DNA from: Planococcus shenhongbingii
GTDB taxonomy: Bacteria > Bacillota > Bacilli > Bacillales_A > Planococcaceae
DNA: 64,000 nt
Direction: 5' to 3'
NCBI RefSeq assembly: GCF_030413635.1
Contig: NZ_CP129235.1
Location: 2,976,001 to 3,040,000 of the forward strand
Of the stretch, positions 5,662-60,891 are shown piece after piece. Every line of letters begins with the position of its first letter. The first letter of the stretch is position 1. Under the pieces are notes generated by a model. The model did not search any database. It was not told the origin of the DNA and saw only the letters and a list, made by a program, of their open reading frames with translations. Both the position numbers and the translations under genes were made by a program.

Positions 5662-7206
<1,545 letters not shown>

Positions 7207-25491: not shown

Positions 25492-27060
25492 ATGAGAAAA
25501 AAAGTGTTAACTTTAATTTCAGCTAGTGCTTTATTATTATCTAGCTTACCTAATAATACCCATTCGGAAAACACTTTAAACATTAAAGGATTAAATTCTT
25601 CGATTAATGAATCTGCCTATTCTTTACCACCGTTTCAAAACCACTTCGCCATTGATTCAGGTGAATCTTCACCAGAAGTAGAACAAGTTGCTTCAAGTTC
25701 TGCAACAGCTAAATCGGGATCTTACAAGTTTAAATACAATACCAATCTCCGATTAAATGCAGGAACAAAAAGCAAAGTCCTGACTGTCGCTAAAAAAGGA
25801 GCTTCTGCAACTGCAACTCATCAGAAAAAAGTTGGCAGCCAGGTTTGGTACAAAGTAAAAGTAAACGGTAAACACGGCTGGGTCTTAAGCACATTACTTT
25901 CCCCAAAAACTTCTACTGCTAAAGCTTCTACTGCTTCAAAAGCAGCCACCTCCGTATCCAGCGCGTATAAAGTAAAATACAATTCAAACGTCCGGGCGAA
26001 CGCCGGAACCAACCATAAAGTCGTAACGCTAGCTAAAAAAGGCTCCACGGTCAAAGCGACTTCTTCGAAAAAAGTTGGCAGCACTACTTGGTTTAAAATA
26101 ACAGCTAACGGAAAAATCGGTTGGATTTCCGGAGCATTACTGACCAAAACTACTGTTGCAGCTAAAGCTTCTGTTAAGTCGAAAGCGCCCGTTAAAGCTT
26201 CCTCTAAAGCAACCGCTGTTTCAGGTTCATACAAAGTAAATTATAATTCAAACGTCCGCGCAAATGCAGGCACCGGCTACAAGATTGTAACGTCAGCTAA
26301 GAAAGGTTCAACAGTCAAAGCGACTTCTTCCAAGAAAGTCGGCAGCACCACTTGGTTTAAAATAAAGGCGAATGGCAAAACCGGCTGGATTTCCGGAGCG
26401 CTGCTTACGAAAACAACAGCCGCTGCTAAAGCTCCTGTAAAAGCTTCATCTAAAGTCACTGCAGTTTCAGGGTCATATAAAGTAAACTACAACTCGAATG
26501 TCCGGGCAAACGCAGGCACTGGCTACAAAATCGTGACATCGGCCAAAAAGGGTTCAATTGTCAAAGCAACTTCTTCTAAAAAAGTCGGAAACCTTACTTG
26601 GTTCAAAACTACAGCTAACGGAAAAACCGGCTGGATTTCCGGAGCATTGCTTACGAAAACAACAGCAGCAAAAGCTGCTACAGTCAGCAAAGCTTCATTC
26701 AGTGTTTCTCCTTCGGCCATCATTTCCACTGCCTTATCTCTTAAAGGGATTCCTTACCGCTTTGGCGGAACCACCACGGCTGGATTTGACTGCTCCGGAT
26801 TTATCCAATATGTCTACAAGCAACACGGCATTTCCGTTTCCCGTACGACTTTGACGCAATTTGCAGAAACGACAAAGGTTAGTTCTCCAAAACCTGGAGA
26901 CTTGGTATTTTTTGCGAACACTTACCGTGCCGGAATTTCTCATGTGGGCATTTACATCGGAAACAATCAATTCGTGCACTCCGGCGGCTCAAAAGCTGAA
27001 GTCAAAAGCTTGAATGATGTTTATTGGGGTCCAAAATTCTATAGCTTCAAACGTTTTTAA
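25492..27060 (+). CDS. secreted NlpC/P60 peptidoglycan endopeptidase with four SH3b domains
   Basis: Cell-wall hydrolase of 522 residues. A signal peptide (residues 1-25) is followed by four SH3b domains, about 76-137, 157-218, 246-307 and 327-388, linked by Ala/Lys/Ser/Thr-rich spacers, and a C-terminal NlpC/P60 domain (about 405-522). Catalytic residues are Cys434 (FDCSGF), His484 (SHVGIYIG) and probably His496 (FVHSGG). Enzymes of this kind cut between D-Glu and the diamino acid of the stem peptide. SH3b 3 and 4 are almost identical also in DNA, a recent duplication. A candidate WalR box upstream agrees with autolysin control. Domain count may vary between strains by recombination. Confidence 0.93.
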   Translation: MRKKVLTLISASALLLSSLPNNTHSENTLNIKGLNSSINESAYSLPPFQNHFAIDSGESSPEVEQVASSSATAKSGSYKFKYNTNLRLNAGTKSKVLTVAKKGASATATHQKKVGSQVWYKVKVNGKHGWVLSTLLSPKTSTAKASTASKAATSVSSAYKVKYNSNVRANAGTNHKVVTLAKKGSTVKATSSKKVGSTTWFKITANGKIGWISGALLTKTTVAAKASVKSKAPVKASSKATAVSGSYKVNYNSNVRANAGTGYKIVTSAKKGSTVKATSSKKVGSTTWFKIKANGKTGWISGALLTKTTAAAKAPVKASSKVTAVSGSYKVNYNSNVRANAGTGYKIVTSAKKGSIVKATSSKKVGNLTWFKTTANGKTGWISGALLTKTTAAKAATVSKASFSVSPSAIISTALSLKGIPYRFGGTTTAGFDCSGFIQYVYKQHGISVSRTTLTQFAETTKVSSPKPGDLVFFANTYRAGISHVGIYIGNNQFVHSGGSKAEVKSLNDVYWGPKFYSFKRF

Positions 27061-32087: not shown

Positions 32088-32440
32088 TATCGATGTTTTC
32101 CGCAAGTTCTAACGACGTTTTTTCGGTTTCTATCAGTTTTTCCAAGATTGCTATCGATGTTTTTCAGCTTTCTATCCGTGTTCTTTCAAAAGGCGGTTCC
32201 TAAACTAAAGTTCAAAAGACCGAATGGAAAAGCCCTTCGCCAAGGCGAAGGGCTTCCAAGACCCAAAGCGCTTTTTGCAGAGGCAAAAAGCAACTGACTC
32301 AAATCCTCTATTGCCGTTTCGAACATCTTCTAACGACGTTTTCCAGATTCTTATCGGTGTTTCTCCGATTCCTATCGACGTTTTTCGAATCCCTATCGGT
32401 GTTTTCAAACTTCCTATCGACGTTCCTAAATCCACTAACA
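32088..32440. repeat. 21-bp phased repeat array A with central hairpin module
   Basis: Two arms of units with consensus TATCGRYGTTTYTC plus about seven variable bases. Left arm: units at 32088, 32110, 32131, 32152 and 32173. Right arm: units at 32309, 32331, 32352, 32373, 32394, 32415 and a degenerate one at 32436. Steps are 21 bases, twice 22. GACG and GGTG versions alternate in the right arm. Between the arms stands a module with a perfect 12-bp hairpin (32230-32241 with 32244-32255) and a second one (GCTTTTTGC 32270-32278 with GCAAAAAGC 32283-32291). It fills the space between two convergent genes. Function unknown. Confidence 0.85.
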
Positions 32441-60460: not shown

Positions 60461-60891
60461 CCTTATGCCCCTTTCCTAAACCAAAATACTTTTGTCTCTT
60501 CAAAACCAATTAGCCTGAATTTTTATCGACGTTTTTTTGTTTGCAATCGGTGTTTCTCGATTTCCTATCGGTGTTTCTAAGTTTTCTATCGACGTTTCTC
60601 CGATTTCTATCGGTGTTTCTGTAATAAGCAGTCCATGGAGATCAACAGATACTATTGGAAAGCCCTCCGCCAGGGCGAAGGCCCCTTTAAACCAGAGCGC
60701 TTTTTGCTTAAGCAAAAAAACCTTTATCGACGTTTCGGACAGGTTCTATCGCTGTTCTTTAGGTTTTTATCGGTGTTTCTCCAATTCTTATCGACGTTTC
60801 TCAGCTTTCTATCGGTGTTTTCAAACTTTCTATCGACGTTCACCAAACACCGATATAAAACCATGCCAAGCAAAAACAACGCAAATCCCTC
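60461..60891. other. intergenic region filled by repeat array B
   Basis: 431 bases between two minus-strand genes; apart from about 60 bases upstream of the ABC gene it is made up almost wholly of the 21-bp array and its central module. Open frames in it are translations of the repeat. Confidence 0.75.
60524..60855. repeat. 21-bp phased repeat array B with central hairpin module
   Basis: Same family as the array at 32088-32440. Left arm units begin at 60524, 60545, 60566, 60587 and 60608 (exact 21-base steps). Right arm units begin at 60725, 60747, 60768, 60789, 60810 and 60831 (22, then 21-base steps). The core alternates TATCGACGTTT and TATCGGTGTTT. At the right end AAACACCGATA (60845-60855) is one inverted unit. 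The central module holds an imperfect hairpin (about 60661-60683) and TTTTTGCTTAAGCAAAAA, a perfect palindrome (about 60701-60718). Function unknown. Confidence 0.85.

Follow-up and report, generated by a model that had tools for sequence, protein, structure and literature searches.

Dispersed intergenic arrays of direct repeats at a 21-bp step in Planococcus shenhongbingii and its relatives, possible platforms for cooperative protein binding

We favor, at a probability of roughly 0.45, the reading that the repeat array at 60524-60855 of the window (the whole stretch of 64,000 nucleotides of Planococcus shenhongbingii DNA that was analysed), here called array B, belongs to an interspersed family of phased multi-site platforms for putative cooperative protein binding, which hints at a DNA-binding system not yet described. 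This reading builds on direct observations, namely the format of the arrays, the contrast between core and linker, their dispersal, their polarity relative to replication in other clades and the occurrence of an unrelated core in one genome (G016).

Results

Array B is intergenic and lies between an ABC transporter ATP-binding protein gene (PF00005; 59675..60460) and an M3 peptidase gene of the oligopeptidase F type (pepF; PF01432, PF08439; 60892..62691), both on the minus strand. Its left array (60524..60628, plus strand) consists of five units TATCG(AC/GT)GTTT with their linkers at steps of 21, 21, 21 and 21, the second unit beginning with AATCG, and it is followed on the same strand by a module with two hairpins, H1 (60661..60684), in which 7 of 10 pairs are kept, and H2 (60699..60720; GCTTTTTGC / GCAAAAAAA). 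The right array (60725..60841, plus strand) has six units at steps of 22, 21, 21, 21 and 21, the last closed by GTTC, and a single exact unit in inverted orientation, TATCGGTGTTT, stands at 60845..60855 on the minus strand. Array A, which as a whole spans 32088-32425, follows the same plan on the plus strand: a left array of five units (32088..32183; steps 22, 21, 21, 21), H1 (32231..32254; 10 of 10 pairs), H2 (32270..32291; 9 pairs) and a right array of six units (32309..32425; steps 22, 21, 21, 21, 21). A terminal linker is common to A and B.

The layout of five units, module and six units that the first-pass annotation had proposed for both loci is thus confirmed, as are the inverted unit that closes B and the imperfect central hairpin of B. 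Its unit length of 21 bases holds throughout the left array of B, but the right array opens with a step of 22. The alternation of GACG and GGTG versions that it described is real but not strict, the order being GACG, GGTG, GGTG, GACG, GGTG on the left and GACG, GCTG, GGTG, GACG, GGTG, GACG on the right. In the window as a whole, TATCGRYGTTT with at most one mismatch occurs 22 times against 4.5 expected, a number reached in none of 100 shuffles, and no Rfam match was found at the gathering score. Protein-coding heptads were set aside by reasoning, since steps of 22 bp break the reading frame. Elsewhere in the window, a 246-bp tandem duplication (26182-26666) is located within a gene for an SH3/NlpC-P60 protein (25492-27060).

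The motif takes up about 12 of every 21 bases, which amount to two helix turns, and leaves a linker of about 9 bp. Arrays of the P. glaciei-type clade, to which the window belongs, were parsed by requiring at least 6 of 9 core letters and steps of 20-22 only, which gave 41 arrays, orthologous loci included, one of them (L055) probably matching within a gene by chance, another (L322:2966) running off the end of its locus. Six units were found in 24, five in 9, four in 5 and three in 3, so that six is the maximum, and degenerate units were frequent. The first step was 22 bp in 34 of these arrays and 21 bp in 7, the later steps were 21 bp in 133 of 136 cases (20 in two, 22 in one), and GTTC or ATTC ended the last unit in 27 of 41. 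This 22-21-21-21-21 format, together with the polarity in other clades and the exchangeable core described below, emerged from genome comparison and goes beyond the first reading of the sequence. Longer arrays occur in genus g38, for example one of about 20 units in G210 with a 42-bp super-period. Curvature predicted by a simple wedge model was above that of same-period column permutations in 6 of 9 arrays (at most 20 of 500 permutations); for the remaining three it was matched by 52, 83 and 95 of 500.

Copies were found elsewhere in the own genome and in relatives, which substantiates the dispersed family that had been proposed and rules out a local accident. The counts of motif pairs that follow rest on the matches listed, and part of the loci was then examined. 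The own genome (G000, 3.98 Mb) has 23 pair matches at up to two mismatches among the matches listed, those with 0 or 1 mismatch lying at 869.8k, 3008k (A), 3036k (B) and 3161k, and a further array of five units was parsed at 1563k. In the family sample the pair was present in 46 of 250 genomes (three or more in 29, one or two in 17), the TATC pattern being patchily distributed. Among the relatives that bear arrays are Planococcus chinensis (G029) and P. glaciei (G006). A reversed control gave a single match in 13 genomes and more in none; genomes with a single pair may therefore owe it to chance. Of the 398 genomes in the class sample 16 matched, and beyond the family only Halalkalibacter nanhaiisediminis (G522) exceeded one match. 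Genomes differ in core dialect: TATCGAAGTT, TATC(A/G)GCGATT, TATCGTCGATT, TATCACCGATT and TATCGACGTTT were all encountered. A shared neighbour gene was not found, no Pfam family having more than 3 members among 116 of 166 neighbour proteins (best 25 of 186 families), and the commonest family in that set was GNAT with 3. At one locus of G005 (L216:4100-5650) two half-arrays of different core type enclose a gene that by eye resembles a cytidine deaminase; the similar locus in G007 (L069) and G026 (L071) contains no gene at this place.

The contrast between core and linker is sharpest in g38. Positions 1-5 and 8 served for unit selection and hence are not evidence; among the others, core positions 6, 7 and 9-11 carry 1.3-1.9 bits in G202 and G210, linker positions 12-16 and -4 to -2 carry 0.03-0.61 bits, and positions -1 and 0 carry 0.7-1.0. 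The cores of g38 are near-invariant and its linkers near-random. The P. glaciei-type clade varies at positions 6 and 7 of the core (0.68 and 0.37 bits), and its linkers are rich in T at their ends. For 19 of the 24 G202 loci examined, the orthologous gap was located in the sequence covered from G210, its sister species. Loose core matches were present in 18 of these gaps and absent from one; at least three matches are found in 13 of 19, while one or two could be chance. At these loci the flanks are 85-97% identical and the arrays mostly retained, with changed unit number and linkers. Across 31 matched units of the sister species identity was 0.92 in the core and 0.79 in the linker, the pairs having been selected at a linker identity of at least 0.7. 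At locus A of G006 (L068:14095-14435) the left and right arrays have linkers in the same order, which points to conversion or duplication on the spot.

The central module was aligned from 13 copies, 12 of them distinct, and the proposed check for covariation in the hairpins found some. Over both hairpins the covariation score was 0.170 against 0.095, reached in none of 500 shuffles, and shifting the partner by 1-3 columns lowered pairing from 84% to 37-53%. However, 31 of 500 shuffles attained as many pairs changed on both sides, 499 of 500 had more pair types, and 5 of the 21 pairs were invariant. In hairpin 2 two-sided change affects 3 of 9 pairs and 96% of cells are paired; hairpin 1, at its best arm pairing, has C-G/A-T and C-G/T-A exchanges, with mismatches in some copies. 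These changes may trace to two subfamilies. Because only 7 of 10 pairs are left and plus-strand folding is no better than in shuffles (z 0.17, compared with -5.64 for the module of A), hairpin 1 of B looks decayed. The pattern of hairpin 1 was found in 5 of 46 genus genomes (G000, G006, G029, G260 and G016) and in none of the controls. At locus B of G006, G029 and G260 the module and the right array are retained and the left array is absent; these three genomes have a hairpin after pepF, and none was seen there in G000. The two hairpins of composite copies may also terminate transcription of the neighbouring gene.

In G016 the layout is kept with a core unrelated to the TATC type. At one site (L323; G016:C18, ~57.3-57.9k) there are three copies of the module, comprising the two hairpins and, upstream, the AAGTTCAAA-like stretch; hairpin 1 is altered in the third copy. 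The copies are separated by two arrays whose 21-bp units have the core TTAACATGATCTA, each array showing six units by eye, the sixth degenerate. A core-blind scan of 1.2 Mb, picked irrespective of arrays and including 400 kb of G000 and 200 kb of G019, found five noncoding arrays at a lag of 21, compared with a total of six over 18 other lags. Four of the five came from G257 and one from G028, and one of the arrays at other lags was in the outgroup G282. The cores of the five arrays at lag 21 are TGGAAAGTATTT, GAGCGTATTT, TTCATGTAGAA, TACCGACG and TACCTGCAC, of which TACCGACG and TACCTGCAC may be kin to the TATC type. Neither the G000 portion (400 kb) nor the G019 portion (200 kb) yielded an array at lag 21 under the stricter test; a looser threshold gave GTTGGGCATAA, GAACGCAAATAA and one low-complexity stretch in G000. 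Two adjacent arrays in G029 (L064:1335-1680) with cores GAGTGATCATAGAA and TTGCCGCAAGTAAAC lie beside an H2-like hairpin. In G257 (L379:11941-13252) two arrays with the TTCATGTAGAA core flank one open frame of 332 aa.

Orientation was determined relative to an origin placed by dnaA, with which the GC skew of each locus concurs in G202 and G210. In g38, 45 of 47 arrays are oriented against replication, TATC... reading towards the origin, a count inflated by loci common to G202 and G210; G202 taken alone has 24 of 25, and its arrays are distributed all round the chromosome. Gene orientation does not explain this polarity, because all 23 of the g38 arrays in convergent or divergent gaps are also directed against replication. 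The same polarity was found in the GGCG/GTCG group (14 of 16), in g27 (4 of 4) and in G522 (2 of 2). In the P. glaciei-type clade orientation is split 11:11; loci with module hairpins were against replication in 10 of 12 cases and loci without them were with replication in 9 of 10, a sorting that takes in several orthologous loci. Arrays with other cores, when the T-richer strand is taken as orientation, were against replication in 8 of 11 cases, which is a lead only, as the rule was chosen afterwards and some skews are near zero.

Own mobility, which the first-pass annotation had raised, was not borne out, as most of the loci examined are common to sister species and the phage and plasmid records searched gave no relevant match. 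One empty orthologous site was found, at locus B in G032, where pepF is 84% identical and the gap measures 156 bases, as against 343-437, with neither module nor array; no target-site duplication was resolvable there. In G001, G257 and G010 a different gene was seen by eye where the ABC gene would stand on the far side of pepF, and these genomes are uninformative on an empty site. Searches by blastn, which is weak for 12-bp cores, gave no match of array B in phage records and, for a similar array of iterons on a plasmid replicon, no relevant match in plasmid records. Pattern scans of viral contigs returned 40 contigs with one pair each; four were inspected, and three of them had just two clear units. 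In the fourth, L270 (IMGVR_UViG_2617271113_000004), units resembling TATCAC.GATT follow one another at 21 bp around 6026-6151, three or four of them by eye.

Discussion

If array B and its relatives are binding platforms, each array would be a row of direct-repeat sites on one helix face, 21 bp or two turns apart, and a protein able to bend or wrap some 120 bp of DNA could bind them cooperatively from head to tail. The two-turn step, the conserved core with a free linker, the limited number of sites and the predicted curvature fit such cooperative one-face binding and wrapping. The core would be the recognition sequence and would change between lineages together with its protein partner, and the elements probably spread by rare copying and ectopic conversion.

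A serious rival, though somewhat unlikely, is a selfish or neutral satellite of the STAR kind, which spreads by template switching at the fork or by single-strand copying, has cores homogenised by conversion and serves no function for the host. The patchy distribution with its species dialects, the repeated linker order at locus A of G006, the terminal linker shared by A and B and the polarity to replication, which is expected of copying at the fork, all agree with a satellite, and STAR, the closest described kind, is likewise of no known function (PMC3532100). Slippage also accounts well for the longer g38 arrays with their 42-bp super-period. However, conversion or slippage would homogenise linkers too, and those of g38 are near-random; the 22-21-21-21-21 format and the ceiling of six units in the window's clade are likewise unexpected under free slippage.

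We consider it improbable that the arrays are transcription insulators of the Rho type or another type, transcribed head-on or past a gene end with the T-rich strand stopping stray transcription; Rho is not known to require a strict 21-bp phase or G-containing conserved cores. Such a role agrees with the intergenic position, with several arrays coming after gene ends (by eye) and with a pyrimidine content of 58-64% on the T-rich strand; a C/G ratio of 0.89-1.33 on that strand is, however, not strongly C-rich. Some transposons insert with polarity, and the dispersal and the orthologous gap without the element in G032 would suit a transposable-element remnant (a MITE or Tn7-like end sites) whose units were transposase sites. 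Its chances also appear slim, since both arrays of a composite run in the same direction rather than inverted, and the empty site is present without a resolvable duplication, most examined loci being common to G202 and G210. A polar fork barrier of the Ter/RTP kind, in which a tight array could halt forks and which would agree with the polarity to replication, is very improbable and RTP/Ter termination can be discarded, as none of the 13 genomes, out of 250 in the family, in which RTP (PF02334) exceeds 130 bits has the array pair, no RTP match was found in G000, and the arrays of G202 lie all round the chromosome. The 13 genomes with strong RTP matches (G061, G068, G103 and ten others) belong to genera g27 and g34. 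A different protein may conceivably act as a barrier.

The platform reading could be widened to a general class in Planococcaceae, of phased arrays with constant geometry, an exchangeable core, several core families per genome and an orientation set by replication. We regard this extension as somewhat doubtful, in part because four of the five arrays from the core-blind scan came from one genome; the class perhaps extends to other Bacillales. If it holds, the arrays would be the DNA side of an undescribed wrapping system in which specificity switches fast and architecture is retained.

No account of the array family appeared among the listed matches in the open-licence PMC literature. A CRISPR array has near-identical repeats, spacers of about the size of the repeat and cas genes, and is ruled out here by the core of ~12 bp with a linker of ~9 bp and by the four genes flanking A and B, which are not cas genes. 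In LytTR-type operators the repeat length is 9 bp, which gives 21 bp from unit to unit. The likeness to LytTR is one of geometry alone: the direct repeats usually have a spacing of 12 bp, with 11 and 13 as variants, and repeat sequences diverge between systems, but the operators described there form a set beside a promoter (PMC6193735), whereas the arrays form rows at many intergenic loci. BldC binds direct repeats head-to-tail (PMC5859096), and both LytTR and BldC would serve as models for array binding by analogy. RemA, which has a LytTR-related domain and is a proposed wrapper of repetitive DNA, and LrpC are similar in having at least six periodic protected sites in an upstream region and in forming a ring or octamer possibly able to wrap DNA; RemA sites are AT-rich and weakly conserved, with 7 bp protected plus 3 bp (PMC8481266), in contrast to the conserved core at 21 bp here. 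The TAACTGA repeats of Beggiatoaceae also form many intergenic sets in which one motif is directly repeated two to six times, but the unit is a heptamer placed mostly just upstream of start codons, and a 21-bp phase goes unmentioned in the abstract (PMC4679880).

STAR elements of Staphylococcus are the closest described kind, and the arrays fit a STAR-like definition in being direct repeats with a conserved core, mainly intergenic and at many loci. As described in PMC3532100, STAR elements are interspersed intergenic direct repeats with a conserved core, locus-specific spacers and species-dependent abundance, as the arrays are; their 14-bp core is T(G/A/T)TGTTG(G/T)GGCCC(C/A) at a spacing of at least 40 bp, and their function and mechanism of dispersal are not known. 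The unit sequence and the 21-bp step rule out STAR elements proper, and the arrays differ further in reaching six units at most in the window's clade, in being replication-polar in other clades and in having an exchangeable core. For interspersed intergenic repeats such as STAR, neither function nor dispersal mechanism is known in that account (PMC3532100), and the arrays combine a rigid geometry, replication polarity in several clades and, in G016, a natural core-swap experiment. With a completely different core beside a conserved module in G016, a putative binding partner and its co-evolution with the core become directly testable.
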